A stretch of DNA of 64,000 nt from Comamonadaceae bacterium. Lineage in GTDB: Bacteria; Pseudomonadota; Gammaproteobacteria; Burkholderiales; Burkholderiaceae_C. The position numbers were made by a program, and so were the translations under genes. The notes under the pieces were generated by a model that was not told the DNA's origin, searched no databases, and saw only the letters and a program-made list of their open reading frames with translations. The stretch spans positions 1 through 64,000 of the forward strand of contig JAECRA010000019.1 of assembly GCA_015999985.1 (NCBI GenBank), written 5' to 3'. This document shows, piece by piece, positions 48,345-63,856 of this stretch. Within the stretch, counting starts at the first letter, position 1, and every line of letters begins with the position of its first letter.

Positions 48345-50138
48345 ATGTCCGCCGAAGCAAGTACAAGCGACCTGATCAGTGTCGTCAGTTTGTTGGGCGC
48401 TGCCGTAGTCGCAGTTCCTATTTTCAAGAAGATCGGACTGGGTTCGGTACTGGGCTACCTCGCGGCAGGTCTGGTCATCGGCCCTTTTGGGCTCAAGCTG
48501 TTCAACGACCCGCAAGCCATTTTGCATGTGGCTGAACTTGGGGTGGTGATGTTTCTGTTCGTGATTGGGCTGGAGATGCAACCCTCTCACCTGTGGAGCT
48601 TGCGGCGCCAGATTTTTGGCCTGGGCAGTATGCAGTGCCTGGTCTGCGGAGTTCTGCTCACACTGGTCGGCATCAGCTTTGGCTTTCCGCTCGCAGTGTC
48701 ATTCGTGAGCGCCATGGGCTTTGTGCTCACCTCGACTGCCATCGTCATGCAGTTGCTGGGCGAGCGCGGCGATATTGCCGCTCCACGGGGCCAGCGCATG
48801 GTCTCCATCCTGTTGTTTGAAGACCTGTTGATCGTGCCGCTGCTGGCCATTGTGGCTTTCATTGCACCTCCTGCGCTTGACGCCTCAGCCGTGGCAGCTC
48901 CCTCTCGATGGGGCGTGATTGGACTGGCGCTGGCCTCGTTGGCGGCCCTGGTGGCCGCGGGGATATGGCTGCTGAACCCATTTTTCCGTGTGCTTGCGAA
49001 CGCCAAGGCGCGCGAGGTCATGACGGCTGCGGCGCTGCTGGTGGTGCTCGGAGCTGCTCTGCTGATGCAACTGGGGGGGCTGTCTATGGCAATGGGGGCA
49101 TTCCTAGCGGGGGTGCTGTTGTCCGAGTCCACTTTCCGGCATCAACTGGAGGCTGATATCGAGCCTTTCCGTGGCTTGTTATTGGGCTTGTTCTTCCTTG
49201 GCGTGGGGATGTCGTTGGATCTCAGCGTCGTTGCCGCGAACTGGCAACTGATCGTCGCCGGTGTGTTGGCTCTTATGGCCACTAAAGCATCGTGCATCTA
49301 TGTCGTGGCACGGCTCACCAAGAGCTCGCACACGGACGCGCTGGACCGCGCGGTCCTGATGGCACAAGGTGGTGAGTTTGCCTTCGTTCTTTTTGCGGCC
49401 GCCCTTGGAGCACGCGTGATTGATGCGACCGTCAATGCCAATATGACCGCGATCGTGGTGTTGTCCATGGCCCTGACACCGCTGGTCGTGCTAGTGCACC
49501 AACGTTTCGGTCCACGCGCCAAGGTGTCCATGGAAGGCGTGGAAGCGCCCCAAGACCGGCAGTCCAGCGTGCTTGTGATTGGCTTCGGCCGGGTCGGCCA
49601 GATCGCCAGCCAGGGCGTTTTGGCGCGCGGCGCTTCCCTGACTGTGATCGATAACGATACGCAGGTGATTCGAGACGCGCAGGCCTACCTGGGCTTCAAG
49701 GTGTACTACGGTGACGGTGGCCGCTCAGATGTGCTCCATGCTGCAGGGGCGCACACCGCCAATGCCATCCTGGTTTGCGTGGATGACAAGGCCGCTGCCA
49801 CGCGCATTGCCGAAAGCGTCCGCTCCGAATGCCCGCACGCGCGCGTATTGGTGCGAGCCTTCGATAGAGAGCACGCTGTGGAGTTGTTCAAGACCGATGG
49901 CGCTGATGTCGTGATTCGCGAGACCTTCGAGTCAGCCATGAAAATGGGCTACGAAGCCATGCTGGCGACTGGTGCAACAGAGGAAGAGGCTCAAGCTGTC
50001 GTCTCAGACCTTCGGCGCTTGGACAGCGAGCGATTTGATCTGGAAGTCGCTGGCGACGCATTTGCGGGTCGCGCCTTGTTGAGGGCAGGCTTGAGGCAAA
50101 AAGACATTCCGGATGCGAGTGCGCAAGCGCACGTCTGA
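48345..50138 (+). CDS. CPA2-family cation/proton antiporter (KefB/KefC/YbaL-like)
   Basis: Monovalent cation:proton antiporter-2 family. 597 residues: about 12 hydrophobic spans in the first ~390 (including GSVLGYLAAGLVIGPFGL and the MGFVLTSTAIVMQLL motif), then a cytoplasmic TrkA-N/RCK domain with Rossmann motif VLVIGFGRVGQIASQGVLARG and acidic IDND at the end of the second strand. Likely K+ or Na+ efflux under stress; glutathione-gating residues of Kef cannot be confirmed. No ancillary flavoprotein gene adjacent. Confidence 0.9.
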   Translation: MSAEASTSDLISVVSLLGAAVVAVPIFKKIGLGSVLGYLAAGLVIGPFGLKLFNDPQAILHVAELGVVMFLFVIGLEMQPSHLWSLRRQIFGLGSMQCLVCGVLLTLVGISFGFPLAVSFVSAMGFVLTSTAIVMQLLGERGDIAAPRGQRMVSILLFEDLLIVPLLAIVAFIAPPALDASAVAAPSRWGVIGLALASLAALVAAGIWLLNPFFRVLANAKAREVMTAAALLVVLGAALLMQLGGLSMAMGAFLAGVLLSESTFRHQLEADIEPFRGLLLGLFFLGVGMSLDLSVVAANWQLIVAGVLALMATKASCIYVVARLTKSSHTDALDRAVLMAQGGEFAFVLFAAALGARVIDATVNANMTAIVVLSMALTPLVVLVHQRFGPRAKVSMEGVEAPQDRQSSVLVIGFGRVGQIASQGVLARGASLTVIDNDTQVIRDAQAYLGFKVYYGDGGRSDVLHAAGAHTANAILVCVDDKAAATRIAESVRSECPHARVLVRAFDREHAVELFKTDGADVVIRETFESAMKMGYEAMLATGATEEEAQAVVSDLRRLDSERFDLEVAGDAFAGRALLRAGLRQKDIPDASAQAHV

Positions 50139-50157
50139 GCTGAGCGCCAGTCTTCAT

Positions 50158-50196
50158 AAAAAAACCCGCCACGCCAGAAGCGTCGCGGGTTTTTTT
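50158..50196 (+). terminator. Intrinsic terminator after antiporter gene
   Basis: A-run, stem acccgc-c-acgc / gcgt-c-gcgggt with one internal mismatch, then seven Ts. The symmetric A and T flanks let it serve both the antiporter gene and the convergent small gene that ends at 50242. Confidence 0.92.
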
Positions 50197-50241
50197 GCGG
50201 ATATGCAATTAGGGCTGTGATAAGCGCAGTGCGCGCGCGTC

Positions 50242-50682
50242 CTACTTGTTGGCTGGCGGCACCGCACACTCAGCGGCTGTTTGCTCGTCCGCATCTTTGC
50301 CGCACGCAAGCTGCTTGTGGAAGTCAAGCACACGTGCCTGGGTAATAGCTGCGTGACACATGCGTTGTCGCATCGGTTGAATGCTCCCACCGGCAGATCG
50401 CATCACCTGAAAACTGCACTCAGCGTCCCGAAAGCTTATCCATTTGCGTTGCGCGTCCACCAGCAATTGACGGGCCTTCTTATCGTTTCCAAGGCGGTCG
50501 GTCATTTGTTTGAAAAGACTATTGAGTTCGTTGTCAGCGCGCTTCAAGCCGTCTGTAGCGCACGCATTCAATTGAGCTTGGGTTTGCGCTTTCTCGAAGC
50601 ACGGGTCATCGGCTGCCTGTGCAGCGCAAGGTAGTGCGGCTACAAGCGCCGCCAGCAGAAACATCAAGCAGTTTTTACGCAT
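50242..50682 (-). CDS. Secreted LprI-like (DUF1311) protein
   Basis: Small periplasmic protein, 146 residues from ATG 50682 (signal MFLLAALVAALPCAAQA). The mature part has the LprI/DUF1311 pattern: PCFEKAQTQAQLNACA, ADNELNSLFKQM, QRKWISFRDAECSF and MCHAAITQAR, with four conserved cysteines likely forming disulfides. Relatives include lysozyme inhibitor-type proteins; an inhibitory role here is only a possibility. The open frame upstream to 50781 is not needed. Confidence 0.85.
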   Translation of the reverse strand: MRKNCLMFLLAALVAALPCAAQAADDPCFEKAQTQAQLNACATDGLKRADNELNSLFKQMTDRLGNDKKARQLLVDAQRKWISFRDAECSFQVMRSAGGSIQPMRQRMCHAAITQARVLDFHKQLACGKDADEQTAAECAVPPANK

Positions 50683-50769
50683 CAGTTGAACTCCAGTCGC
50701 TCTGACCCCAGTGTTACCAGGTGTTCTCGGTGTTGGGGGGCATCCCATCCGCATTTTCCATAAGAAAAA

Positions 50770-50795
50770 GCCCGTATGCATTTTGCATGACGGGC
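50770..50795 (-). terminator. Intrinsic terminator of the catabolic operon
   Basis: Stem gcccgt-atgca / tgcat-gacgggc (pairing gcccgt with acgggc around an inner atgca/tgcat) followed on the minus strand by a run of Ts. It lies 46 bp beyond the stop of the last minus-strand gene and marks the 3' end of the 50.8-62.7 kb operon. Confidence 0.88.
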
Positions 50796-50841
50796 CTTAC
50801 GGTGGGGAAGGGGCGTGCGTTAAGCCTGTGAAAGCAACAGC

Positions 50842-51807
50842 CTAAGAGTGGACGCTGCTGCGCGACATGGCCCGCATCCTGCTGCAAGCTTCTTCGAGCT
50901 CACGCACCAGGTTCTTCATAAGTTCGGCCGCGGGCTCCAGGGTCTTCACAAGCCCTGCGGATTGGCCAGCTTCGACTTTTCCCCACTCCACATCGCCGTC
51001 CAGTGCCGCTTGCTTAAGGGTGTTTTTCTTGAAGAGCGCCTCGTATTCTTCCTGTGGAACGTCGCGTTGTTCGGCTGCGAAGATCGCTTGAGCAAAGGCA
51101 TTGTTCAGTGCCCGCACCGGCAGGCTGCGTTTGCCGACCAGCACAGCGTCGGCGGCACGAGCGCCCAAGACCGCCTCTTTGTAGGCCGCGTGGACCGTAG
51201 CTTCATGCGTGGCGATGAATCGAGTGCCAAGTTGAACGGCGTCCGCTCCCAGGGCCAGAAGCGCAGCGATACCCCAGCCGTCGGCTACGCCACCACCGGC
51301 AATGACCGGAATGGACACCTCTTTCAACACCTGGCGTACGGTAACGAGTGTGCTGACCCCGCTGACGGGGGGGTGCCCACCGGCTTCAGCACCCACAACC
51401 ACCAGCGCGTCAACCCCTGCCGCCTCCGCCTTCAGGGCATGCTCAAGCGTGGAGACCACATGAATCCACTTGGCGCCGTATTCACGAAAACGTGGCAAGT
51501 GGACCTTGGGACCACCCTGAGAAGCAATGATGACGGGCACCCGGTGCTCAAACATCACGTCCAGGATCTCTTCTACCTTTGGGCGGTACAGGGGGATGTT
51601 GACGGCGAATGGCTTGTTCGTCAGGGACGACATCTCCTGCAGCACACTCTTGAAGGTTTCGACATACATGGGCCCGGCGGCAATGACCCCCAAGCCTCCC
51701 TCGTTGGAGACGGCTGCCGGCAGCGCAGCGCTGGAGGAAGCCCAGCTCATTCCCGCTTGTACGATGGGATGCTCGATGCCGAGCATTTCGGTAATTCTTG
51801 TCTTCAT
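50842..51807 (-). CDS. Nitronate monooxygenase-like flavoprotein
   Basis: FMN-dependent TIM-barrel enzyme of the 2-nitropropane dioxygenase/NMO family (PF03060), cytoplasmic. 321 residues. PIVQAGMSWASSSAALPAAVSNEGGLGVIAAG start, GAEAGGHPP with the His expected of class I NMOs, and FMN phosphate-binding IAGGGVADG and GADAVQLGTRF. Members also include enoyl-ACP reductase FabK, so the substrate may be an enoyl-CoA or a nitronate. Last gene of the operon, 68 bp from its upstream neighbour. Confidence 0.85.
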   Translation of the reverse strand: MKTRITEMLGIEHPIVQAGMSWASSSAALPAAVSNEGGLGVIAAGPMYVETFKSVLQEMSSLTNKPFAVNIPLYRPKVEEILDVMFEHRVPVIIASQGGPKVHLPRFREYGAKWIHVVSTLEHALKAEAAGVDALVVVGAEAGGHPPVSGVSTLVTVRQVLKEVSIPVIAGGGVADGWGIAALLALGADAVQLGTRFIATHEATVHAAYKEAVLGARAADAVLVGKRSLPVRALNNAFAQAIFAAEQRDVPQEEYEALFKKNTLKQAALDGDVEWGKVEAGQSAGLVKTLEPAAELMKNLVRELEEACSRMRAMSRSSVHS

Positions 51808-51875
51808 GTGAAGCTCTTAACTCAAAAGGATACTGAACCTGGGGGGACCGGAGCGCCTGCGGAGCATGCGGTGGC

Positions 51876-52859
51876 TTACTCAATCTTGATGCCAGATTCC
51901 TTGATGAGTTTGCTGTACGCGTTGCGCTCTTCTTCGACCAGCTTCGCCAGATCCGTGCTGGAACCTGGCAGTGCGATGTTGCCTGACGAAGCAAACTGGG
52001 CTTTGAGTTTTTCCGAGTTGAGTGCACGTCCGATGGCTGCATTCAAAGTGGCGATCGCAGCAGGTGGGGTATTGGCGGGTGCGAAGACAGCGAACCAGTT
52101 GCTTGCGGAAAAGCTGGGTACTCCGCTCTCGGCAATGGTCGGAATCTCGGGGAACAGGGGCTCCCTGGTTTTTCCGCTGGAAGCGAGAGCTGTGAGTGCG
52201 CCCGAGCGCACTTGTCCCAGCACCGTGGGAACCGAATCAAAGAGCAGGTCAATGGTGCCCGAGCGCAAATCAGTCAGGGCCGGGCTGGTCCCTTTGTACG
52301 GTATGTGCCTGAGTTGAATACCCGCAGCCTGTTGAAAAGCAGCGGCCGCCAAGTGGGTGTTGGAGCCATTGCCTGCCGAGCCAATGGTGAGCTTGCCCGG
52401 TTGCTGACGTGCGAAGGCGATGAGTTCAGCCACAGTCTTGAACTGCAGGCCTGGGCGTCCGAGCAGAAGGTAGGCGAACCGCGCAACTCCGCCCACCGGC
52501 AGGAAATCCTTCTGCGGGTCATAGGGAAGATTGGGCATCAACACAGGGTTGATGACGAAAGTGGCGGCGCTGCCCAATAACAGGGTGTAGCCGTCCGGCT
52601 CTGCAGAGGCTGCTTGCTGGGCCGCAATGATCCCGCCTGCACCTGGCCTGTTTTCAATGATCATGGCTTGGCCTAGAGGACCTTGAATTTCCTGGGCCAG
52701 GGCGCGCGCGACAAAATCACTGCCGCCACCTGCTGCAAAGCCCACCACCAGTTTTGGCGGTTTGACCGGCCATCTGGCTTGTGCCAGAAGTTTCGGGGTG
52801 GCCAGCATGGACGCGGCAAGCGCGCCAAATGTGCGTCTATTGAAGTGGAGCATTTGCAA
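51876..52859 (-). CDS. Bug-family solute receptor (TctC type), Tat-like signal
   Basis: Periplasmic tripartite tricarboxylate transporter receptor. 327 residues. The signal is FNRRTFGALAASMLA, a twin-arginine pattern (an ATG at 52853 would keep it). Mature start PPKLVVGFAAGGGSDFVARALAQEIQ, then IIENRPGAGGIIAAQQAASAEPDGYTLLLG, both hallmark Bug blocks. Binds an organic acid, unidentified. 5 bp after the CoA-transferase gene; no TctA/TctB membrane genes are in the window. Confidence 0.92.
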   Translation of the reverse strand: MQMLHFNRRTFGALAASMLATPKLLAQARWPVKPPKLVVGFAAGGGSDFVARALAQEIQGPLGQAMIIENRPGAGGIIAAQQAASAEPDGYTLLLGSAATFVINPVLMPNLPYDPQKDFLPVGGVARFAYLLLGRPGLQFKTVAELIAFARQQPGKLTIGSAGNGSNTHLAAAAFQQAAGIQLRHIPYKGTSPALTDLRSGTIDLLFDSVPTVLGQVRSGALTALASSGKTREPLFPEIPTIAESGVPSFSASNWFAVFAPANTPPAAIATLNAAIGRALNSEKLKAQFASSGNIALPGSSTDLAKLVEEERNAYSKLIKESGIKIE

Positions 52860-52864
52860 ATTCC

Positions 52865-54100
52865 TTAAGTGGAGCGCGGCGACTGGCCGGGCTTGTGCGC
52901 AAGCGCGATGGCGCGCTTGAACAAGTTTTCGATGTCGGCCGGGGAGTAACCCAGTTCACGCAGAATCTCCTCCGATTGCTCGCCGATGTGCGGCGCGTGG
53001 TGCCGCAGCTTCGCTTGAAAGCCGGACATGGACACTGCAGGCTTGATCCGCTTGATCGCACCTTGTGTGGGATGGATGTCGTTTTCTATCAAGCCCACGT
53101 CCTGTAGGTGAGGATCCTGCAGAAGACTCTCCAAGGTATGGCAGGGCATGATGGGAACGTCGTGCTCCAGCAAGCGTTCCATCAGTTCTTCCGTGCTGAA
53201 CTGACGCACAACGTCTGCGCGCGCAGAAAAGAATTCGGAGACATGTTCGATTCGAGCAAGCGATGTCGCGTACCGGGCATCATTGGCCAGCTCGCTCCGC
53301 CCCAGGGCCTCAAAAAGGCGCTTCACCTGGGCATCTGTGTTGGTTGTGATGCACACATAACCGTCCCTGGTTTGCACCGGTTTGGCGTTGGCATCCAGCA
53401 GCCGCTGATCGCCCAGTGGCCCGGTCGGTGGATCGAAGGTATGACCATACATATGTTCGCTGAGCAGCAACGCCGCAAAGCTTTCGAACATCGGGATTTC
53501 CAGCGTTCTACCCGCCCCATCTCTTTGGTGGGCGAAGAGTGCAGCAAGCACCGCGTTGGCCACCATGAGCCCTGCAGTCCGGTCTACCACCACATAGGGC
53601 ACGTAGCGCGGCTCTGCCCCATGGGTTGCGAACAGGCTGGCCAGGCCGGTCCCTCCCTGCAAGATGGAGTCGTACGCTGGTCGTCCGGCATAGCGTCCCT
53701 TGCTCCCAAACCCGACTATGGATGCATGGATGAGCGCGGGGTGACGCTTGCACAGGGTCTCGGCATCCAAACCCAGGCGAGCCAATGCAGCGGGCCTCAT
53801 GTTGTGCAGGAAGACGTGAGCGGTGTCCACCAGTTTGAGCAGAGCCTGGCGGCCTTCCTCCTGCTTGAGATCCAGGCAGATGCTGCGCTTGTTGCCATTC
53901 ATGTGCAGAAACTTGCCCGGCATGCCCGGTGTGGGTGATCGGCCGCAGATCCATCGGATCACGTCACCGGAACGCTCCTCCACCTTAACCACATCGGCGC
54001 CGTATTCCCCCAGAACCTGTGTGGCGTAGGGGCCTACGACTGCGGAAGTCAGATCAACGATTCGAATGCCGGCTAGCGGCGCGGATGTGTTTTGCGTCAC
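52865..54100 (-). CDS. CaiB/BaiF-type (class III) CoA-transferase
   Basis: Moves CoA between acyl groups via an aspartyl intermediate in the cytoplasm. 411 residues. LAGIRIVDLTSAVVGPYATQVLGEYGADVVKVE opening, MNGNKRSICLDLK, and catalytic Asp173 in VVDRTAG are present, with the C-terminal HAPHIGEQSEEILRELGYS tail. Likely activates or recycles the acid imported by the adjacent Bug receptors. 6 bp after its upstream neighbour. Confidence 0.93.
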   Translation of the reverse strand: MTQNTSAPLAGIRIVDLTSAVVGPYATQVLGEYGADVVKVEERSGDVIRWICGRSPTPGMPGKFLHMNGNKRSICLDLKQEEGRQALLKLVDTAHVFLHNMRPAALARLGLDAETLCKRHPALIHASIVGFGSKGRYAGRPAYDSILQGGTGLASLFATHGAEPRYVPYVVVDRTAGLMVANAVLAALFAHQRDGAGRTLEIPMFESFAALLLSEHMYGHTFDPPTGPLGDQRLLDANAKPVQTRDGYVCITTNTDAQVKRLFEALGRSELANDARYATSLARIEHVSEFFSARADVVRQFSTEELMERLLEHDVPIMPCHTLESLLQDPHLQDVGLIENDIHPTQGAIKRIKPAVSMSGFQAKLRHHAPHIGEQSEEILRELGYSPADIENLFKRAIALAHKPGQSPRST

Positions 54101-54106
54101 GGTGTG

Positions 54107-55108
54107 TCAGGTATCCAGCTTGATGCCGCGGTCCTTGATGATCTTTCTCCACGTCTCAATCTCTTTGCTCAGAAACGCTTCGAACTCTTTGGGCGTGGTG
54201 CCACGCACACGAATGCCTTCCATGGCCAGTTTGGGCGCCAGGTCTGGTGCCTTGACTGCGTCGATGATGGCCTTGTTCAATCGCTCCACGATCGCTGCAG
54301 GTGTATTGGCAGGCGCGGCGAAGGCCCACCAACCCTCGATGTCGTAGGTGGGGTAGCCCGCTTCAGCGATGGTGGGGTAGTCCTTGAAAGCGGGAGAACG
54401 TTCCGCGCTTGTAATGGCCAGCACGCGCACGCGGTCGGCTTTCAGTGCAGACGCTGCACCCGAGTAGGTACTGAACGTGTAGTTCAACTGCCCGCCGATC
54501 AAATCATTGATCACGGGCGCCGTACCTTTATAAGGTACGTGCAGCATCTTGATACCTGCTACCGACTGAAGCAACTCACCCATGAGGTGCGCGTTGCCGC
54601 CTGTGCCGGATGATCCGAAAGAGTATTGGCCCGGCTTCTCTTTGGCCAACCGCACGAGTTCCTTCACGTTCTGCACGGGGGAATCCTTGCGCGTCAGAAG
54701 CAGAAAAGGTGCGCTTGCTGCGAGCGTGATGGGGGTGAAGCTCTTGACGGAGTCGTAGGGTAGATTGCCTACCAGGCTGGCGTTGATGGCGTGAGCCGCA
54801 GGCATCTGGAGCAGGGTGTAGCCATCGGGCTTGGCGGTCGCCACGGCCTGCGTACCGATCAAGGTGTTGCCGCCGGCGCGGTTTTCGACGATGACCGACT
54901 GCTTCAGTGACTGCGTCATCTGGTCTGCAATGGCGCGCGCCAACACATCATTGATCGCGCCCGGAGGGTAGGGGACCACGATCTTGATGATGCGGTTGGG
55001 AAACTCCTCCGCATAGACGCCAGCGGAAATCGCGGCAAGGCTGGCCCCGAAGGCTTGGAGAATCGTTCGGCGAGAAGCCAGGGTTGACTTGTTAGGCAAA
55101 GATTTCAT
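54107..55108 (-). CDS. Bug-family solute receptor (TctC type), Tat-like signal
   Basis: Second periplasmic Bug receptor of the operon, 333 residues. Signal ASRRTILQAFGASLAAISAG has a twin-arginine motif. Bug blocks IKIVVPYPPGAINDVLARAIADQM and VIVENRAGGNTLIGTQAVATAKPDGYTLL are clear, and VPYKGTAPVINDLIGGQ is the second ligand loop. Overlaps the enolase-superfamily gene by 4 bp. Confidence 0.92.
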   Translation of the reverse strand: MKSLPNKSTLASRRTILQAFGASLAAISAGVYAEEFPNRIIKIVVPYPPGAINDVLARAIADQMTQSLKQSVIVENRAGGNTLIGTQAVATAKPDGYTLLQMPAAHAINASLVGNLPYDSVKSFTPITLAASAPFLLLTRKDSPVQNVKELVRLAKEKPGQYSFGSSGTGGNAHLMGELLQSVAGIKMLHVPYKGTAPVINDLIGGQLNYTFSTYSGAASALKADRVRVLAITSAERSPAFKDYPTIAEAGYPTYDIEGWWAFAAPANTPAAIVERLNKAIIDAVKAPDLAPKLAMEGIRVRGTTPKEFEAFLSKEIETWRKIIKDRGIKLDT

Positions 55109-56259
55109 GTGGTTGTCTCCCAGGAAATGGATGTTTGATCAGGGCCGGAGCTATTGAAGTCGACGCCTGTACCCACGGCGTCGCACACGGTGATGGATCC
55201 GTCATGAACGTCGAATCCAGAAAACGGGTCGTCCAGAATGTGTTCGGACTCAGCCAGCTCAACCCCCAGGCTGGGCGCGGGAAGAATGCTTGCCATGTGT
55301 GCTGCCTGAGCAGATGCCAGGCGAGGCCCGAAGATCGCCCCGACTCGGCACTGCTTGCCCGCCGCCTGGCATATGCGGGCAGCTTGCAAGGTGTCACGCA
55401 AGCCGCCGAAGTAAGGCACTTTCAGGTTGAAGGAGTTCGCCGCCTTCAACTCAATGAGCTTGAGCAAATTCGCAAGCGATCCTGCAATGCTTTCATCGGC
55501 TTCGATGGGAATGCTGGATTCGCGTGTGATGCGAGCCATGCCTTCCCAATCGGAAGCCGCGACCGGCTGCTCTATCAAGCTCACACCGAAAGAGGACAGC
55601 ATCCTGCACAACTCCAGCGCTGAATCCGTCTCATAGGCCTGGTTGGCGTCCACTGTCAGCAGAGCGGCCGGCCCGGCCGCTTGCCTAATGGCTTGAACTC
55701 TTTGCTTGTCGAGATCCCATTCACCGCTCAGCTTGATTTTGAGGATTCGGTAACCCTCGGCAGTCAACTTGCTCGCGGCCTGGGCCATCTCTACGGGCGC
55801 TTTGATCGGTAGCAATCTGGCAGCCAGCGCGCTGCGAGTGATGGCGCCGCCCAGAATCTGATGCAGCGGTACACCATGCTGTTTGGCAATCAGGTCATAG
55901 ACGGCACCCACAATCCCGGCTCTCACTGGCGCCACTTCTGGGCACACCTCGTACAGCGTACGATGCATCCGTTCGGTTTCCAGCAGCGTCTGGGCTTTCA
56001 GCGCGCTCAGGCTGTCCTTCAGTGCAGCCAGGGTTCGTGCGGGGTTGGGCTTTCCGATTGGCGTAGTCAGCACATACCCATAGCCCACCAAACCCTCCGC
56101 CGTAGTGGCTGATACCAACCAGCCGTTGACGTGCTCGATGTGGCCTTGAGCGAAGCGCCAGGTAGGGTCCTCCTGACGTTGACGCAGTTGTGCAAACGCA
56201 AAACGAACATCAGCAGAGCTCAACTCACGCTCCTGCGTTATGAAGCCTGGCCTGGGCAT
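55105..56259 (-). CDS. Enolase-superfamily enzyme (mandelate racemase/muconate lactonizing type)
   Basis: Abstracts a proton alpha to a carboxylate with Mg2+ (racemase, epimerase, dehydratase or cycloisomerase). 384 residues. KxK base at Lys174/Lys176 (LKIKLS), metal ligands Asp204 (TVDANQAY), Glu230 (LIEQPV), Asp255 (EADESI) and a second-face Lys280 (FNLKVPYFGG): the muconate-lactonizing subgroup pattern. The C-terminal ~25 residues are an extension. The start overlaps the lyase gene by 35 bp. The exact reaction cannot be told. Confidence 0.9.
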   Translation of the reverse strand: MPRPGFITQERELSSADVRFAFAQLRQRQEDPTWRFAQGHIEHVNGWLVSATTAEGLVGYGYVLTTPIGKPNPARTLAALKDSLSALKAQTLLETERMHRTLYEVCPEVAPVRAGIVGAVYDLIAKQHGVPLHQILGGAITRSALAARLLPIKAPVEMAQAASKLTAEGYRILKIKLSGEWDLDKQRVQAIRQAAGPAALLTVDANQAYETDSALELCRMLSSFGVSLIEQPVAASDWEGMARITRESSIPIEADESIAGSLANLLKLIELKAANSFNLKVPYFGGLRDTLQAARICQAAGKQCRVGAIFGPRLASAQAAHMASILPAPSLGVELAESEHILDDPFSGFDVHDGSITVCDAVGTGVDFNSSGPDQTSISWETTT

Positions 56260-57211
56260 GGGCTTGCCGCAGTGGGTTCAAGCCGCTGCGACCCACACGT
56301 CCATCCAGTTCGCGCCCCAAGGCTGCCTCGCAGGCCTCCACGGTCTCCAGCAGACGGTCCAGGTCGATGCCCGTGCGTATACCCATGTTTTCGAACAGGT
56401 CGATCAAATCCTCGGTGGCCACATTGCCCGTGTGCCCACTGCCATACTTGACCTTGCTCGGATGCCCTCCCACCCCGCCCAGTGCGCTGTCGAAGTAACG
56501 CACGCCGGCATCGTAGGCTGCGACGTAGTTGGCAAGGCCAGTTCCACGCGTGTCGTGGAAGTGGGCAATGAGCGTCGCATCAGGAATAGCTTCGCGCGTG
56601 TTCTGGAACAAGGCGCGTGTGGTCAAAGGTGTGGCGGTGCCGGTGGTGTCTGCCAATGTGATGTGATGCACGCCCAGATCAAACATGCGTTTGGAATCTG
56701 AGATCACTTGCGCGGGTTCTACCCAGCCTTCAAACGAGCAGCCAAATGCCATGGAGATCGTGCCAATCAAGCGGAAGCGGCCCTGAGCAGCGGCGATCAT
56801 CTCTTCGATGTTGCGCCATTGCTCTTCCCGGGTCCGGGCCAGATTCTTCTTCGAATGGGTGTCTGTGGCAGAGACCAGCAAGCTGATTTCATTGGCTCCG
56901 AAACCTGCATCTGCATCCGCCAGAGCGCGCTCCACCGCACGCACGTTGGCGCATGTCGCCTTGTAGAAGACGCCCTCCTTGCGAGGCAGCGTGCGCAAGA
57001 GCTCGCTCGCATCTGCGAACTGCGGCACGACCTTCGGATTGGAATAGGAAGTGGCCTCCACGCGCTCGAATCCCAGGTCAGCCAGGCGGCTGATGAGCTC
57101 CACTTTCTTGGGTGTCGGCATGAATTCGGATTCATGCTGAAGACCGTCGCGCGGAAAGCATTCGCAAAGAACGACGTCGCGGTCAGAGGGTGTGTTTGTG
57201 GAGTTCGTCAT
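56225..57211 (-). CDS. DRE-TIM metallolyase, hydroxymethylglutaryl-CoA lyase-like, Cys site altered
   Basis: HMGL-like TIM barrel (PF00682), 328 residues. Arg21-Asp22 (FPRDGLQ) and metal His217/His219 (AHFHDT) are kept, and Asn263 follows. In true HMG-CoA lyases the loop is GGCPxAxGASGN with catalytic Cys; here it reads GGVGGHPSKVKYGSGHTGN, with His250 at the Cys position and four extra residues. A retro-aldol or Claisen cleavage of a different branched acyl-CoA or 4-hydroxy-acid is more likely than HMG-CoA itself. Overlaps the ligase gene by 4 bp. Confidence 0.88.
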   Translation of the reverse strand: MTNSTNTPSDRDVVLCECFPRDGLQHESEFMPTPKKVELISRLADLGFERVEATSYSNPKVVPQFADASELLRTLPRKEGVFYKATCANVRAVERALADADAGFGANEISLLVSATDTHSKKNLARTREEQWRNIEEMIAAAQGRFRLIGTISMAFGCSFEGWVEPAQVISDSKRMFDLGVHHITLADTTGTATPLTTRALFQNTREAIPDATLIAHFHDTRGTGLANYVAAYDAGVRYFDSALGGVGGHPSKVKYGSGHTGNVATEDLIDLFENMGIRTGIDLDRLLETVEACEAALGRELDGRVGRSGLNPLRQAHAQARLHNAGA

Positions 57212-58872
57212 GTCGTGGGCGCGTTGGTTTCCGCGGTGATGTTCCAGAGCCGGATGGCGTGTTCGCGAAGCTTGTTCTTCTGAATCTTGGAGCTGCCGGT
57301 CATGCCGATGTGCTCAAAGGTGTCCACCACGTCCAGATAGCGGGGCACTTTGAAATTCGCTGAGCGATCTCGGCACCATTGGATGAGTTCAGCCCTGTCA
57401 GCGCTGCTGCCCTCCTTCAGCAGGATGAACGCTGCGGTGACCTCGCCCAGGCGGGCGTCAGGCACACCAATCACCTGGGCTTGTTGCACGGCAGGGTGTG
57501 CGTGAAGAACCTCCTCGACTTCTGCGGGGGCGACGTTTTCACCGCCTACGCGGAACATGTCCTTGAGCCGCCCGACCATGCGAAAGCGGCCGTGTGCATT
57601 GCGTTCGCCGAGATCGCCGGTCTTGAGCCATCCATCAGCTGTAAAGGCCTTGGCGGTCGCTTCTGGCTGGTTGTGATAACCCTTCATCACGTTCCAGCCG
57701 CGCACCTGAATTTCACCTTGTGCTCCGGCCTTGGAGAAAACTTCGCCCGTGCCTTCGTCTGCCAGCCTGACTTCGACACCAGGGTGGGGCAGCATGAAAC
57801 CGTCGCGGCGATCTTCCAGGCTGTCGTCCCAGTCTGAAAGCAAAACATTGGGCGATGCTTCAGACTGTCCGTAGGCGTTGCACATGTGCGCTACGCCCAT
57901 TCGTTCACTGATCTTGAGCATGACTTCAGGCCCCGCTGCAGCCCATCCTCCGCGAAGATGAATGCGGCTTTTGTCAAACTCAGGGTGACCGATCAGCATC
58001 AGGAAGATGGTGTCGTTGCCGGAGGTCAGCGTGCAGCGCTCGGTGTCCAGCACCTGCAATGCCTGGGCAACGTCGAACTTGGGCAGGCTCAGCAGGCAGC
58101 AACCCGAGACCAGGCTGACCAGGATGGACAAGGTGCTTCCGGCCACATGGAAAAATGGCCGAATGCTGAAGTAGCGGTCAGTAGCCTGTACCCCCATTCG
58201 GCGCGCGACAGACGCCGCGTCGCCGATCATGTTCAGGTGGCTCAGCATCACACCCTTGGGGAACGACGTGGTGCCAGAGGTGTACTGGATCAGCAAGGTG
58301 TCGTGTGGGTCCACCTTACCCATGGCTGATTCAAGTTCCGTGGGGCTCGCCTGTTCCCCTGTAGCCATGAACTGCTGAAGGCTGATGGCACCCGCAGGGA
58401 CAACTTTGCCGCCCACCTGAACCGCTACTTTCAGTGAGGACAGGCCACTACCAGGCAATCTGGACAGGACGGCGGGTTCCACCTGTTCCAGCATGGCCTG
58501 GAAATCGATGCCTAGGAAGTTGCTGGCGTAGATCAGCAGCTTGACGTCGGCTTGGCGAAGGCAATACTGAAGCTCATCAGCCTTGAACCTGGTGTTCACA
58601 GGCACGGCGACCGCACCTATCAGCGCGCATCCGAAGAAGATTTCTATCCAAAGGCTCTCGTTGCCGATCAGTATGCCGACATGGTCGCCACGCCGTATGC
58701 CCGATGCATGCAAGCTGGCCGCGATGCTCTGTGCACCAGCCTGAAGCTGTGACCAGGTGCGTCGTTCGCCAGGCCCTACATAGGCCTCCTGGTTGCCGCG
58801 GCTGGCCACTGTAGAGGCCAGGACTTCGGCCAGGGTGTGCGGCAGGGGAACCTGTTTGGAATCAAGCAGCAC
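57208..58872 (-). CDS. Acyl-CoA synthetase (AMP-forming)
   Basis: ANL-superfamily ligase activating a carboxylic acid through an acyl-adenylate. 554 residues. P-loop YTSGTTSFPKGVMLSH, adenine motif around NAYGQSEASPN, hinge motif GWLKTGDLGERNAHGRFRMVGRLKDMFRVGGENV and C-terminal catalytic Lys in GSSKIQKNK. Medium-chain or aromatic/cyclic acid ligase-like; substrate unknown. 11-bp overlap with the hydratase gene upstream. Confidence 0.93.
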   Translation of the reverse strand: MLLDSKQVPLPHTLAEVLASTVASRGNQEAYVGPGERRTWSQLQAGAQSIAASLHASGIRRGDHVGILIGNESLWIEIFFGCALIGAVAVPVNTRFKADELQYCLRQADVKLLIYASNFLGIDFQAMLEQVEPAVLSRLPGSGLSSLKVAVQVGGKVVPAGAISLQQFMATGEQASPTELESAMGKVDPHDTLLIQYTSGTTSFPKGVMLSHLNMIGDAASVARRMGVQATDRYFSIRPFFHVAGSTLSILVSLVSGCCLLSLPKFDVAQALQVLDTERCTLTSGNDTIFLMLIGHPEFDKSRIHLRGGWAAAGPEVMLKISERMGVAHMCNAYGQSEASPNVLLSDWDDSLEDRRDGFMLPHPGVEVRLADEGTGEVFSKAGAQGEIQVRGWNVMKGYHNQPEATAKAFTADGWLKTGDLGERNAHGRFRMVGRLKDMFRVGGENVAPAEVEEVLHAHPAVQQAQVIGVPDARLGEVTAAFILLKEGSSADRAELIQWCRDRSANFKVPRYLDVVDTFEHIGMTGSSKIQKNKLREHAIRLWNITAETNAPTT

Positions 58873-59683
58873 CCTGAGCTCCTGATGTTGATGCCTGAGC
58901 TGAGGGAGTGGCGGAACCGTCAGAGGCTGAACCGCCGAATCCCGAAATCGCCTTTTTCCAGTCGCTATGGCGCAGGTTTTCCTGAATGGCGAGCAGCTCC
59001 TGGGCCATGGCGCCTTCCCTCGTGGTTTCCAGACCCGTGTCTATGCTGCGCTTGGTAAGCGCCACCGTCAGAGGATTGGCCTTGGCAATGCGCTCGGCAA
59101 GTTCCTGAACGCGCGCATCCAGTTCGCCAACCGCATAGACATGATTGACCAGGCCGAGTTCAAGCGCTTCTTCGGCTCCCACCTTGCGTCCGGAAAACAG
59201 CAGTTCTTTCGCAACGCGAGGCCCCACGATGCGGGGTAGGCGCTGGGTAGCACCAATCGTGCCCCAGCCTACTTCCGGGTAGCAAAAGACTGCCTCTGTA
59301 CTTGCCAGGATGAAATCGCATGCGCCTGCGATTTCGCAACCTGAGCCGTAAGCAGGGCCATGGACTACCGCGATCACGGGTTTGGACAGGCGTTCCAGCG
59401 ACGCATATGCCGTGAAACCGTCCACCCTGCGCGCCAATGTCTCGGCGCCACTCATGGTTTGGCGTTCCTTGAGGTCCGCACCAGCGCAGAAAGCCACCCC
59501 TTCGCCGCGAAGCAAGATGACACGAACGTTTTCGTCGGCCTCCAGAGCTTCGCATGCCGCAACGATTTCGTGGCACATCTGCAAGTTGAGCGCGTTGCGG
59601 TTGTCAGGTCGGGCCAGGCGCAAGGTTGCGATGCTCCCCGAAGTGGTCACTTGAATGGCTTGAAAATCAGGCTTGCTCATCAC
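58862..59683 (-). CDS. Enoyl-CoA hydratase/isomerase (crotonase) family protein
   Basis: Crotonase-fold enzyme, 273 residues. Oxyanion Gly-rich motif AFCAGADLKER and GPAYGSGCEIAGACDF with Glu117, plus Glu137 in YPEVGWG: both catalytic glutamates of hydratases are present, so true hydration of an enoyl-CoA is likely. The last ~25 residues are a low-complexity Ser/Ala/Gly/Thr tail. 3 bp after the Bug gene stop. Confidence 0.92.
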   Translation of the reverse strand: MMSKPDFQAIQVTTSGSIATLRLARPDNRNALNLQMCHEIVAACEALEADENVRVILLRGEGVAFCAGADLKERQTMSGAETLARRVDGFTAYASLERLSKPVIAVVHGPAYGSGCEIAGACDFILASTEAVFCYPEVGWGTIGATQRLPRIVGPRVAKELLFSGRKVGAEEALELGLVNHVYAVGELDARVQELAERIAKANPLTVALTKRSIDTGLETTREGAMAQELLAIQENLRHSDWKKAISGFGGSASDGSATPSAQASTSGAQGAA

Positions 59684-59686
59684 GTA

Positions 59687-60661
59687 TTACTCTTGAAGTT
59701 TCATTCCGGTGTCTTTAACCAACTGCGCAAGGCGCTTGCCATCCAGGGCCGCAAAATCTTTGGCCTGGGCACGCATCTGAGGCATCAGCTCGGAGTTCTG
59801 TCTGTCCAGGGCAGCACGAAATTCCGGTGAAGCCTTCACTTTTTCAAGCGCTTGGGCCAAGCGTTCCACGACCGCTGCAGGGGTTTTTGCAGGGGCAGCC
59901 AGGCTGTACCAACTGCCGGTTTCCATGCCTTTGAGGCCGGCCTCTGCAAACGTGGGCACATCAGGCAGCTCTGGAGAGCGCTTGGCGCCACCGTAGGCCA
60001 GAGCCTTCAGGCGTCCGTCCTTGATGAATGGCACCACCACAGACACGTTGAGCATGCCCGCCTGTACTGTGCCCGCCACCATGTCTGTGGTTGCCGGCGC
60101 TGCGCCTCTGTAGGGAATATGAACCAGGGAGATGCCGGCCGTATGCTTGAACATCTCGAAGGCGATATGCGGTGAGCTGCCCATGCCCGCGGAGGCATAG
60201 CTGAGCTTGCCGGGCTGAGGCTTGACCAGAGCAATGAACTCCTTGAGCGTGCCAGCCTTGACGCCGGGATTGATCGTCAGGATATTCGGAACGTTGGCGA
60301 TCATGCCGACGAACTCGAAATCCTTGATACCGTCGTAAGGCACCTTGGTCGCCAGGGGTGTGACCGTGTGCGCGGCGGCGGTCCCCATGAGCAGCGTGTA
60401 GCCATCGGCGGGCGCACGCGCCACGAAGGCTGCGCCTACCGAAGCACCTCCACCGGGGCGGTTGTCCACAATCACTTGCTGGCCAAGAACATCTCCCAGA
60501 CGCTTGGCCAGCTCACGACCAAGAATATCTGCTGGGCCCCCTGCCGCGTAGGGATTCACCATGGTAATCGGCTTGCTCGGAAATGGGTCGCCCTGGGCGT
60601 TCGCGACGGCTGCCACTGCGACCAGAAGGCTGGCGAGCAGGCGTTTGTGAAAATTTGGCAT
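59687..60661 (-). CDS. Bug-family solute receptor (TctC type)
   Basis: Third Bug receptor of the operon, 324 residues, with an ordinary Sec signal (LLASLLVAVAAVANAQG). PITMVNPYAAGGPADILGRELAKRL, VIVDNRPGGGASVGAAFVARAPADGYTLLMG and IPYRGAAPATTDMVAGTVQ are diagnostic. It differs from the other two in sequence and signal type, which suggests a distinct ligand. 64 bp after the second CoA-transferase gene. Confidence 0.92.
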   Translation of the reverse strand: MPNFHKRLLASLLVAVAAVANAQGDPFPSKPITMVNPYAAGGPADILGRELAKRLGDVLGQQVIVDNRPGGGASVGAAFVARAPADGYTLLMGTAAAHTVTPLATKVPYDGIKDFEFVGMIANVPNILTINPGVKAGTLKEFIALVKPQPGKLSYASAGMGSSPHIAFEMFKHTAGISLVHIPYRGAAPATTDMVAGTVQAGMLNVSVVVPFIKDGRLKALAYGGAKRSPELPDVPTFAEAGLKGMETGSWYSLAAPAKTPAAVVERLAQALEKVKASPEFRAALDRQNSELMPQMRAQAKDFAALDGKRLAQLVKDTGMKLQE

Positions 60662-60725
60662 GACGGGCTACTTTCTTGAAGAGTGTCGAAAGGGAGTCGG
60701 AAAGTTGTCGAGCAGGAGAGGTGGA

Positions 60726-61922
60726 TCAGATGGCGCGCTGGGTGCGCAATGCTTCGATCTCGGCGGGCTTAAGTCCCAGCACTTTCGAGAGCACTTCCTC
60801 TGTGTGTTCGCCAAGGAGCGGCGGCCGCTCCGTCTTCGGGTCATCCAGGCCGTCGAACCGGAAGGGAACCCGCAAGCCCTTGAATTCGCCTATGAGCGGG
60901 TGGTCATACTTGACCACCATTTCGCGCTCTGCGACGTGTTCGTTGCCCAGTACTTCGCCGACGTCAAGAATGGGCCCTGCGGGCACGCCCACGGCGTCAC
61001 AGCGCCGGCACAGTTCTTCCTGGCTGAGCTTTTTGATGGCATCGCCCAAGCCTTGCATGACCTCTTCTCGTCTGGCTAGCCGGTCAGCGTTCTTCAGCAG
61101 CGTTGGATCAGTGGCCCAGGCCTCAAGGCCCAGCAGTTCGCACAAGGGTTTCCAATGCTGATCACTTCCCGTAATCTGCACCCACTTGCCGTCGGAGCAC
61201 TCAAAGGCTGCCGATGGAATTCGCCCAGGGTGTTCGGTGCCAAGCCGCTCTGGCACTTCGCCCAGGGTGAACCAGCGAGCCGCTGCCAACGACAGCAGGC
61301 CCACTTGGCCGTCGAACATCGAGAAATCCACATGGCTGCCGAGCCCGCTGGTGTGGCGGCCATTGATGGCAGAAAGAATGGCAATGGCTACCCACAAGCC
61401 AGAGGTGAGGTCTGCAACGGGCAGCCCGGGTTTCACAGGGCCGCCACCGCGCTCTCCTGTAAGGCTCATGATGCCGCCCATGGCCTGGAAGACGGTGTCG
61501 TAGCCTTTGCGATGCGCGTAAGGGCCGGTCATGCCAAAACCGGTGCAGGACACGTAGACCAACCGGTCGTTGAGTGGCTTAAGCGTTTCGTAGTCCAGCC
61601 CATAGCGCTTCAACGTTCCCGTGGGGAAATTTTCAAGCAGCACATCGGATTGGGCCGCCAGGCCGCGAATGACTTCCTGGCCTTGGGCAGAACGAAGATT
61701 GACCGTGACTGACTTCTTGCTGCGGTTGAACGCCAGGTAATAAGCGGAGACATCGCCTTGGTCGCCGTGCACGACGGGTTCGAAGGCGCGGGTTTCATCG
61801 CCCGTGCCGGGCTGCTCCACCTTGATGACTTCGGCACCGAGTTCTGCCAGGATCATGGACGCGAATGGACATGCCAGAACACGCGAGAGATCCAGGATCT
61901 TGAGTCCTTCGAGCGGGCGCAT
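60726..61922 (-). CDS. CaiB/BaiF-type (class III) CoA-transferase
   Basis: Second class III CoA-transferase, 398 residues. LEGLKILDLSRVLACPFASMILAELGAEVIKVEQP opening, FNRSKKSVTVNL, catalytic Asp171 (VADLTSG) and the HTEEVLSKVLGLKPAEIEALR end. Similar to succinyl-CoA:acid CoA-transferases of dicarboxylate pathways, but specificity is not readable. 2 bp downstream of the operon's first gene. Confidence 0.93.
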   Translation of the reverse strand: MRPLEGLKILDLSRVLACPFASMILAELGAEVIKVEQPGTGDETRAFEPVVHGDQGDVSAYYLAFNRSKKSVTVNLRSAQGQEVIRGLAAQSDVLLENFPTGTLKRYGLDYETLKPLNDRLVYVSCTGFGMTGPYAHRKGYDTVFQAMGGIMSLTGERGGGPVKPGLPVADLTSGLWVAIAILSAINGRHTSGLGSHVDFSMFDGQVGLLSLAAARWFTLGEVPERLGTEHPGRIPSAAFECSDGKWVQITGSDQHWKPLCELLGLEAWATDPTLLKNADRLARREEVMQGLGDAIKKLSQEELCRRCDAVGVPAGPILDVGEVLGNEHVAEREMVVKYDHPLIGEFKGLRVPFRFDGLDDPKTERPPLLGEHTEEVLSKVLGLKPAEIEALRTQRAI

Positions 61923-61924
61923 GC

Positions 61925-62716
61925 TCAGTGCTTTCCGTTTGCAGAAGCGGAAGTTGAAGCAGAAGTACTAGCGGCGGCAGAGCTTGCCGAACGAAAGCCT
62001 CTCATCATCACGTTCGCGTCCCGGCCCACATCGAGTGCATCGCCCAGAGACAGATCGCTGGCGCGGTGAAAAGTGCGCTTGGTGGTGGCCATAGCCAGAG
62101 GGCTCCAGCCTGCCATCTTGGAGGCCATTTGCATGGCGGTGTCCAAAACATCCTCGTTAGGCACCGCACGATTGACCAAGCCCAGCGCCTTGGCTTCGTG
62201 ACCATTAATGGGTTCTGCCATCGCAACCAGTTCAAAGGCCTGCTTGCGGCCCAGTTGCCGAACCAGGTTGGCAAGTACCACGGCAGCCACGATGCCGTGC
62301 TTGAGTTCCGGATAGCCGAAGCGCGCGGTGTCTGACATTACGACCAGATCACACGCCAGGGCGAGACCCGCGCCGCCGCCCAAAGCATTGCCGCGAACCG
62401 CTGCGACCACAGGCTTGTTCATCTGAGAGAACACCAGATGCAGCGACGTCGTGAGATCAGCTCTGGCATTGACGGCGCGAGGGTCATCAGGCGTCAGGGC
62501 AGAGAACTCAGTGGTGTCGGCACCGGCACAGAAGGACTTCCCGGCGCCTACCAGCACGACCGCGTTGACAGTGGGGTCCGCATCCGCCGCGCGCAAACCG
62601 TCCAGCAGCTCCTGCGTCAGCACGGTGTTCAGCGCGTTGTGCTTTTCTGGCCGGTTCATGGTCAACACCCGAACAGGGCCGTGATTTTCGATCAGGAGGT
62701 GTGTCTCTGAGGTCAT
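61925..62716 (-). CDS. Enoyl-CoA hydratase/isomerase family protein, one Glu lost
   Basis: First gene of the operon, crotonase fold, 263 residues. AGADTTEFSA and GNALGGGAGLALACDLV show the oxyanion pocket, but the first catalytic Glu position is Gly117; Glu137 (YPELKHG) remains. This pattern fits isomerases or retro-reactions rather than simple hydration. The C-terminus is an unusual Ser/Ala/Thr repeat (SAAASTSASTSASANGKH). Preceded by a promoter with a MarR-type operator. Confidence 0.9.
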   Translation of the reverse strand: MTSETHLLIENHGPVRVLTMNRPEKHNALNTVLTQELLDGLRAADADPTVNAVVLVGAGKSFCAGADTTEFSALTPDDPRAVNARADLTTSLHLVFSQMNKPVVAAVRGNALGGGAGLALACDLVVMSDTARFGYPELKHGIVAAVVLANLVRQLGRKQAFELVAMAEPINGHEAKALGLVNRAVPNEDVLDTAMQMASKMAGWSPLAMATTKRTFHRASDLSLGDALDVGRDANVMMRGFRSASSAAASTSASTSASANGKH

Positions 62717-62808: not shown

Positions 62809-62837
62809 AATGTAAACTAACAAGTTGAGATCGTCAA
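62809..62837 (-). promoter_or_regulatory. Promoter of the catabolic operon
   Basis: On the minus strand TTGACG (62837-62832) and TACATT (62814-62809) are separated by 17 bp, a good sigma-70 pattern, about 90 bp before the first gene. Its -35 lies inside the palindrome at 62822-62840. Confidence 0.7.
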
Positions 62838-62840
62838 CTT
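62822..62840. promoter_or_regulatory. Candidate MarR operator
   Basis: Perfect palindrome aagttga-gatcg-tcaactt in the divergent region between the operon and the marR-type gene. It covers the -35 of the operon promoter, so bound repressor would block polymerase. Length and symmetry fit MarR-family sites. Confidence 0.72.
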
Positions 62841-62928: not shown

Positions 62929-63420
62929 ATGAAGAAGCAAAAAGTACCCAAAGAGTCCGAGCTCGCGTTCGGAGAGTTGGTGTCGACGCGCCTTCACGCG
63001 CTGGCAGGCATCTCCGCGACCGTGACGACCCTGCGGATGCGCAGAAAACTCAATCTCACCTTGCTCGAGTGGCGCGCCGTCGGCCACCTGGGGAGTTACG
63101 GCCCGCTTTCGCTCAAACAACTCGCTCAGCGAACCGGGCTGGACAAAAGCTACGCCAGCCGAACCGTGACCGCCTTGGTCAATAAGGGCGCCATCGTGAG
63201 CGAGCGAAGCGAAGAGGACGGCCGGGGCGTGGTGCTTTCGCTCACCGAGCAGGGTGTCAAACTCTTCCATCAGGGCATGGATGACGCCCTCCAGCGCAAC
63301 GAGACCTTGCTGTCCACCCTGGCGAGCGGGGATCGCGAGAAGCTTCTGGCGCTCCTGGACATGCTGGCAGTGCAGGCCAAAGCCATGCTGAAAGACGAAC
63401 GGGCGATTTCAGGCGGGTGA
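62929..63420 (+). CDS. MarR family transcriptional regulator
   Basis: 163-residue winged-helix regulator. Recognition region LSLKQLAQRTGLDKSYASRTVTALVNKGAIVSERSEEDGRGVVLSLTEQG includes the helix-turn-helix and the wing with Asp-x-Arg. Helical dimerisation ends on both sides. Divergent from the eleven-gene operon and immediately upstream of an acyl-CoA dehydrogenase gene; probably represses one or both and responds to the substrate or its CoA ester. Confidence 0.93.
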   Translation: MKKQKVPKESELAFGELVSTRLHALAGISATVTTLRMRRKLNLTLLEWRAVGHLGSYGPLSLKQLAQRTGLDKSYASRTVTALVNKGAIVSERSEEDGRGVVLSLTEQGVKLFHQGMDDALQRNETLLSTLASGDREKLLALLDMLAVQAKAMLKDERAISGG

Positions 63421-63856
63421 GGCCGCGCGCCGGACCCGACCCCAAAGTCCGCCTTCTGTGGGAGGCAGGGGCAACCGATCTAGCATCGCTGAACCCCCAA
63501 AGATGCGAAGGTCTGCTTGGATACTGATCTCTCCAAGCTCTCCGTCATTCCCGCGCAGGCGGGAATCTAGGGTTAAGAAGCGCAGCTTTTGCCAGTCACC
63601 GCGGTTGTTAGTCCCGAGTTTTATGCTGTAGTGCTGGGAAGCTCGCGATTAACGATGCATAGCACCAGTTAACCCTGGATTCCCGCCTGCGGGCAGGGCC
63701 GGCCGTCCGGGAGTGACGGGAATGACAAACCCCCGGAATCTCCGGCTTGTCTGGGAGGCGACATCCACGGTCAATTCACTGTGAGAGGATGCGTGCAAGG
63801 CGCACCCAAAGCCCAAAATTCCAACGTCCCCCTCCCAAGAAGCAGGAGCCTCTTTC
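63421..63856. other. Intergenic region with inverted repeat element
   Basis: 436 bp between the marR-type gene and the acyl-CoA dehydrogenase gene. Its main content is the palindromic repeat described at 63543-63726. AAGAAGCAGGAG before 63857 supplies the ribosome-binding site. No small gene is supported. Confidence 0.6.
63543..63726. repeat. REP/MITE-like inverted repeat pair
   Basis: The left unit at 63543-63576 starts with gtcattcccgc, folds on itself as attcccgc-gcag-gcgggaat, and ends aatctagggttaa. The right unit (63669-63726) is its inverted copy: ttaaccctggattcccgcctgc matches with one mismatch, then a ~27-bp insertion precedes gggaatgac. The ~92-bp spacer has no gene. The gtcattcccgc core is widespread in proteobacterial intergenic repeats of the REP/NEMIS kind. 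Confidence 0.8.

Follow-up and report, generated by a model that had tools for sequence, protein, structure and literature searches.

A predicted MarR-controlled operon with a variant HMGL-type lyase in a Comamonadaceae bacterium, and its candidate role in the breakdown of beta-branched dicarboxylates

Introduction

Eleven closely spaced genes in a Comamonadaceae MAG (79% complete, 4.3 Mb assembly) raise the question of which acid they serve to degrade, and whether the whole set acts as a single pathway, as the initial annotation had proposed. The window, i.e., the whole stretch of DNA that was analyzed, was 64,000 nt in length. The reading favored here, at a probability of roughly 0.6, is that of a MarR-controlled catabolic operon that would process a beta-branched dicarboxylate as CoA esters and release acetyl-CoA by a retro-aldol step. 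The exact gene set did not emerge as the unit that defines a pathway; six enzymes and the MarR regulator recurred among relatives, and the remaining genes were modules.

Operon Organization and Gene Content

The 11 ORFs, all on the minus strand, spanned positions 50842–62716. Families were assigned using Pfam and NCBIfam profiles. In the order of transcription, the genes encoded the crotonase ECH1, lacking the first of the two usual glutamates but retaining the second (61925–62716); CaiB-A, a family III CoA-transferase (60726–61922); Bug1, a TctC-type receptor (59687–60661); ECH2, a crotonase of hydratase type with both usual glutamates (58862–59683); an AMP-forming acyl-CoA ligase (57208–58872); an HMGL-like lyase with His250 in place of Cys and a four-residue insertion in the G-loop (56225–57211); an MLE/MR enzyme of the enolase superfamily with KxK-D-E-D-K residues (55105–56259); Bug2, a second TctC-type receptor (54107–55108); CaiB-B, a second family III CoA-transferase (52865–54100); Bug3, a third TctC-type receptor (51876–52859); and a FabK/nitronate-monooxygenase-like FMN protein (50842–51807). 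From 5′ to 3′, the junctions were a gap of 2, a gap of 64, a gap of 3, overlaps of 11, 4, 35, and 4, and gaps of 6, 5, and 68 bp. The initial description of eleven genes on one strand, with several overlaps and gaps of at most 68 bp, was therefore accurate, all ORFs being present and four junctions overlapping.

The families named initially also stood, except for the last gene: among solved structures its product most closely resembles enoyl-ACP reductases, so FabK-like is a better name than NMO-like. Several specific models stayed below their cut-offs. The flavoprotein scored 300.5 bits against the FabK equivalog TIGR03151 (cut-off 453.1), the MLE 124.9 bits against the muconate cycloisomerase model TIGR02534 (cut-off 334.95), CaiB-A and CaiB-B 109.6 and 129.2 bits against the carnitine CaiB equivalog (cut-off 413), and the ligase 245.8 bits against the carnitine CaiC equivalog (cut-off 651). 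With the Cai operon, as generally known, the window shares a CaiB-type transferase, a ligase, a crotonase and an adjoining acyl-CoA dehydrogenase (ACAD), to which it adds the HMGL, the MLE and the FabK-like protein.

Behind the operon, a hairpin followed by U5 on the minus strand (50765–50795) makes a convincing predicted Rho-independent terminator, in agreement with the initial annotation. The surrounding 51 nt (50755–50805) folded at -22.4 kcal/mol (z -4.65), although a simple terminator scan had not listed the hairpin. Ahead of the operon and divergent from it was a gene for a MarR-family regulator (62929–63420, plus strand). The ACAD gene does follow this regulator, starting at 63857 on the plus strand and running beyond the window (63857–64000 within it; 391 aa on the contig). 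Its start, however, lay 436 bp behind the MarR gene with an inverted repeat in the interval, a layout in which tight coupling of the two is only conjectural.

A Recurring Core With Added Modules

Species genomes were scanned with an alignment of 10 variant lyases, which gave 215 confirmed loci, of which 80 were kept. Adding loci found on plasmids and in whole genomes gave the 92 variant-HMGL loci compared, a set that counts two contigs twice (L046/L061 and L047/L074) and holds groups of near-identical strains, so that its counts are not numbers of independent events. The 20 control loci surrounded ordinary HMGLs, namely the nearest canonical lyases of the window's own family, and were thus a non-random choice. 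Genes were called with a hexamer-scored caller, whose calls in the Bosea locus matched nearly all annotated genes.

All five partner enzymes of the lyase were found at ≥45% identity in 64 of the 92 loci (ECH1 in 83, CaiB-A in 81, ligase in 75, ECH2 and the FabK-like protein in 74 each), and none of the five in any control locus. When identity was lowered to 35%, ECH1-like, CaiB-A-like and ECH2-like genes were detected in 4, 3, and 2 of the 20 controls. Bug1 was present in 44/92 loci at ≥45%. The other genes were rare at the same identity, with the MLE in 10 loci, CaiB-B in 6, Bug3 in 4, Bug2 in 3 and the ACAD in 1; even at ≥35%, the ACAD was linked in a single locus, that of Ottowia. The comparison thus reveals a recurring core of ECH1, ECH2, CaiB-A, ligase, variant HMGL and FabK-like protein with MarR, often accompanied by Bug1. 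Since the accessory genes are rare in relatives, the window operon is, judged by gene content, this core with modules added and not one indivisible pathway. The independent occurrence in relatives that the initial annotation had named as evidence against it applied to the accessory genes (MLE, Bug2, CaiB-B and Bug3, present in few relatives) and largely not to the core.

The core itself was largely kept together, though some relatives missed single genes. At least one core gene was absent at 45% from 28/92 loci, partly accounted for by the ends of contigs or fetched segments. The FabK-like gene was missing inside otherwise complete clusters in L080, L093, L102, and L105; two to four core genes were missing from L071, L077, and L092, read for 10 kb per side; and in L040, L043, and L136 a crotonase below the cut-off occupied the place of ECH2. 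The pairs ECH1-CaiB-A and ECH2-ligase were mostly conserved, while the order of blocks varied. Among accessory genes, CaiB-B adjoined Bug3 in L059, L108, and L123, and the MLE adjoined Bug2 in L059 and L065. In seven Pigmentiphaga-type loci the MLE adjoined Bug1 and Bug2 was lacking, which speaks against a fixed MLE-Bug2 module. For more distant MLE relatives (38–39% identity) on Roseomonas and Comamonas plasmids, no HMGL was annotated within 10 kb.

The nearest named locus found was that of Ottowia thiooxydans DSM 14619 (L051), which carried the same 11 genes in the same order, with the divergent MarR and the ACAD, at 82–95% identity. Polaromonas jejuensis NBRC 106434 (L057) carried the core.

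The core gene set occurred in beta-, gamma- and alphaproteobacteria and in Rhodococcus. A lyase at ≥60% identity was found in 4 of 299 genomes of the sampled family and in 2 of 398 genomes of a phylum-wide sample, the source genome being included in both counts. On these samples, the core is a patchy but broadly distributed catabolic module.

The Variant Lyase and the Crotonases

The window lyase matched PF00682 (1.1e-38) and passed the cut-off of PRK05692, the NCBIfam HMG-CoA lyase subfamily (268.3 bits, cut-off 246). Solved HMG-CoA lyases match its sequence well enough to make the fold clear, with 6nds aligned over residues 13–312 at 4.1e-67 and 2cw6 also matched. Residues R21, D22, E52, D188, H217, H219, and N263, which we take to map to the HMG-CoA lyase active site, were all retained. 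The enzyme therefore shares with HMG-CoA lyase (LiuE/HMGCL) both the profile and the Arg/Asp/Glu/His/His/Asn set, and differs from it in the His for Cys and in the insertion.

Relatives with ≥50% identity, ≥60% coverage and no stop were aligned, which left out 5 of the 92 lyases. The change from Cys to His in the G-loop, together with the four-residue insertion, was found in the window lyase and in 86 of 87 relatives (one gap), whereas all 20 controls had Cys at this position. The variant loop reads GGHP, four more residues and YG; the canonical loop reads GGCP followed directly by YA or FA. Further features that differ from HMG-CoA lyase were K84 and T86, present in 87/87 relatives, and C87, present in 86. 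Pairwise identity was at least 52% within the variant group and 33–49% to the 20 canonical lyases, and the window lyase and its 87 relatives formed one clade apart from the controls (support 0.875). The loop Cys is catalytic in HMG-CoA lyase. The window lyase lacks this Cys, and with it the GGCP loop looked for in an enzyme of EC 4.1.3.4, so the reaction of the variant may differ from that of HMG-CoA lyase. The initial view of a CoA-based catabolic unit with an unusual HMGL-type lyase, an enzyme that fits a retro-aldol step, is supported.

Among the crotonases, ECH2 kept the first glutamate in 61/62 sequences and the second in 62/62, at positions presumed to correspond to those of the rat enzyme. 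ECH1 had Gly at the first position and kept the second glutamate in 64/64 sequences; being without one hydratase glutamate, it could be an isomerase instead of a hydratase. Two loci point to hydration. In L049 and L126, ECH1 and HMGL occurred without CaiB-A, ligase, ECH2 or FabK-like protein at ≥45%. In L049 they followed carboxyltransferase and biotin-carboxylase genes and preceded BioB-like and other biotin-synthesis-like genes, and both of these carboxylase clusters were also represented in L126. Carboxylase, hydratase and lyase in series is the logic of leucine and acyclic-terpene breakdown, and this likeness argues that ECH1 would hydrate a 3-substituted glutaconyl-type ester that HMGL would then cleave.

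A Predicted Operator and Candidate Regulon

A single promoter had been proposed ahead of the operon. The only sigma-70-like match there was TTGACG-17-TACATT (9 of 12) at 62809–62837 on the minus strand (reading 62837–62809), and such matches were about as frequent in the region as expected (5 found vs. 3.8 expected), so that, taken alone, it is no evidence for a promoter. Its -35 element, however, overlapped a conserved perfect palindrome, AAGTTGAGATCGTCAACTT, at 62822–62840 in the gap between ECH1 and MarR, which is the predicted MarR operator and sits within a 45-bp segment shared without change with Ottowia. The palindrome had been read from the window alone; in the other loci, at a tolerance of 3 mismatches, it turned up in 68 of the 187 intergenic regions that precede core or MarR genes vs. 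2 of 592 others, the only test that uses the window sequence itself. The contrast was poorer at 4 mismatches (31 further regions vs. 20).

A refined motif, WAGTTGA-N5-TCAACTW with up to 2 mismatches, was shaped on the same loci in which it was counted, and gave 152 sites in 88 loci vs. 9 for a reversed control pattern. Of these sites, 130 lay no more than 250 bp from the start of a core or MarR gene (2 for the control pattern) and 22 elsewhere; sites near such a start were present in 61 of the 88 loci. A related count gave 155 sites, 15 of them inside genes, and the 20 canonical-HMGL loci held one site. Sites in relatives were also located between core genes and PcaGH-like, MLE, CaiB-B/Bug3, SSADH-like, GMC or MFS genes. 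The refined-motif scan listed none for the Rhodococcus locus L042 or the Bosea loci L039 and L122.

The conserved palindrome upstream of genes that marks a MarR regulon was thus present. The divergent MarR is predicted to bind the palindrome at 62822–62840, and the operon is probably switched by its own MarR repressor. In the source genome, the window site was the one perfect match. A single site with 1 mismatch, considered as a second target, fell inside an ORF resembling mnmA, named from its translation, and was set aside; with up to 2 mismatches, 25 sites vs. 43 for the control were found in that genome, supporting no second target. What began as an unnamed single operon thus becomes a candidate regulon, marked by the six-enzyme core, the lyase motif GGHPxxxxYG and the operator WAGTTGA-N5-TCAACTW. 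These markers allow the system to be recognized across several bacterial classes and give annotators a reason to avoid the label "HMG-CoA lyase".

Proposed Pathway and Alternative Readings

The existence of one unit with one predicted operator, and of a lyase clade with a changed loop, is well supported by the comparisons; the reactions of the favored dicarboxylate pathway and their order we infer from family chemistry alone. Periplasmic Bug receptors would bind the acid or acids, which would be converted to CoA esters by the ligase or, through CoA transfer, by CaiB. Adjustment of the chain by hydration or dehydration and by reduction or a double-bond shift could fall to ECH2 and the FabK-like flavoprotein, and ECH1 would yield a 3-hydroxy-3-substituted glutaryl-CoA-type ester. 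Retro-aldol cleavage by the variant HMGL would then give acetyl-CoA and a keto acid, which CaiB could activate. The MLE, Bug2, CaiB-B and Bug3 would be add-ons feeding this core. As the initial annotation had held, no described pathway matched, here among open-license PMC papers, a scope outside which most subscription journals fall. Also considered and provisionally set aside were the steroid C/D-ring, isoprene, itaconate, thiodipropionate and indole-acetate pathways.

The genes that would feed the core differ so much among relatives that they may serve different substrates. TauD, ketopantoate-reductase-like, RraA-like, GMC and thioesterase genes were found in some, and MetE-like genes at ≥45% in 11 of the 92 loci and in none of the 20 controls. 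Others carried ring-cleavage genes, which raise the modest possibility that 4-substituted catechols are degraded by ortho cleavage and that the core supplies the later steps of this route. An intradiol dioxygenase would produce a 3-substituted muconate, which a cycloisomerase of the enolase superfamily would turn into a quaternary muconolactone; once the lactone is opened and activated with CoA, HMGL would split off the branch point in the form of acetyl-CoA. For the window, this would require a dioxygenase encoded at another site or import of the acid already ring-cleaved. PcaH-like (beta) genes at ≥45% were found in 14 and PcaG-like (alpha) genes in 13 of the 92 loci, and in 0/20 controls. 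They were part of the core operon or were transcribed divergently from HMGL across an operator site, and the closest solved relative of the PcaH-like protein was the beta chain of protocatechuate 3,4-dioxygenase. Enolase-superfamily genes occurred in at least 21 loci, in three groups of the tree, and Bosea had an alpha/beta hydrolase nearest to the PcaD models, far under their cut-offs. However, 78/92 core loci had no PcaH-like gene at 45% within reach, and the window operon contained no intradiol dioxygenase, the only one found in the genome being on contig C97 near an MLE-family paralog. Moreover, no dioxygenase locus carried a window-type MLE, any enolase-superfamily gene there falling in another group of the tree, which makes a ring-cleavage reading weaker for the window.

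A wider and somewhat more speculative version sees in the core a general route for beta-branched ring-cleaved acids, in which quaternary muconolactones, classically dead ends, would be CoA-activated and cut by a Cys-less HMGL-type lyase, with loss of the branch as acetyl-CoA. If true, this would give Burkholderiales, Pseudomonas and alphaproteobacteria an alternative finish to ortho cleavage controlled through one shared operator, a related gene set being present in Rhodococcus.

It is unlikely that the core instead belongs to a pathway for acyl amines or amino acids and handles its acid half, with the dicarboxylate supplied by an aminotransferase and a semialdehyde dehydrogenase. SSADH-like genes (15/92) and class III aminotransferase genes (10/92) were present at ≥45% and absent from all 20 controls. 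Bosea added a PotA-type transporter gene, an HDAC-like gene and RidA, Shinella an HDAC-like gene, and in G492 genes for SSADH, ABC, HMGL, ECH1, CaiB-A, ECH2 and aminotransferase formed one run. The window operon, however, holds no aminotransferase, SSADH-like or other such gene.

An ordinary leucine or acyclic-terpene (Liu/Atu) pathway is very improbable, although it would share the HMGL family, crotonases, CoA chemistry and a passed PRK05692 cut-off. Hydration followed by HMGL-type cleavage is common to these routes and the proposed one, whereas the window has a ligase, CaiB and a FabK-like protein, and no acyl-CoA carboxylase is encoded among the operon genes. The catalytic Cys is absent from its lyase, and five further HMGL-family matches elsewhere in the genome leave room for a true LiuE. 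The closest published lead, the beta-valine pathway of Pseudomonas SBV1, likewise combines a CoA ligase, enoyl-CoA-hydratase-like enzymes and an HMGL, but differs in its use of 3-methylcrotonyl-CoA carboxylase and in its HMGL, which is 75% identical to P. aeruginosa 2FTP (PMC4619459).

Least credible is that catabolic genes with no common function came together by chance alongside Bug receptors, which are numerous in this bacterial group: the accessory genes are indeed patchy, but the core recurs in beta-, gamma- and alphaproteobacteria and Rhodococcus, with a single operator motif in the proteobacterial loci.

Genes and Repeats Flanking the Operon

Two genes were located behind the operon (window 48345–50781). 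The first, on the plus strand and convergent with the operon (48345–50138), appeared antiporter-like from a reading of its translation, while the second, a small gene on the minus strand like the operon itself (50242–50781), had its longest start within the operon terminator. A REP-like palindrome was found between the divergent MarR gene and the acyl-CoA dehydrogenase gene (window 63547–63691), with inverted arms of 23 nt each at 63554–63576 and 63669–63691. Its ATTCCCGC-N4-GCGGGAAT part occurred in 5 copies in the genome, vs. 0 for the reversed control.

Loci in Relatives

The copy of the core gene set on the Polaromonas P1-6 plasmid was in pieces (L038:10362–15939); the annotation split both the ligase and HMGL regions, and the HMGL match required three pieces. 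Near the core in genome G492, a 782-aa ORF fused an APH-type phosphotransferase to a class III aminotransferase (L159:16015–18363), whereas in Bosea (L039) these were two separate adjacent genes. An enolase-superfamily ORF with an additional N-terminal stretch of ∼180 residues ran open at the contig edge (L120:1–1680).

In genome G162, the region behind ECH1-HMGL and the carboxylase (L158:3692–9366) contained BioB-like, class I/II aminotransferase and AAA_26 (BioD-type) genes, as well as a single 897-aa ORF combining P450 and class III aminotransferase domains. In another locus, the protein c19 (L070:6790–7386) was encoded downstream of HMGL and a MetE-like gene; it is 198 aa long and matched no Pfam family at 1e-5, and its cluster was present in 8 loci. 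The core cluster was also carried by MAGs titled Bordetella parapertussis and Klebsiella pneumoniae (L068 and L121), species names that look doubtful.
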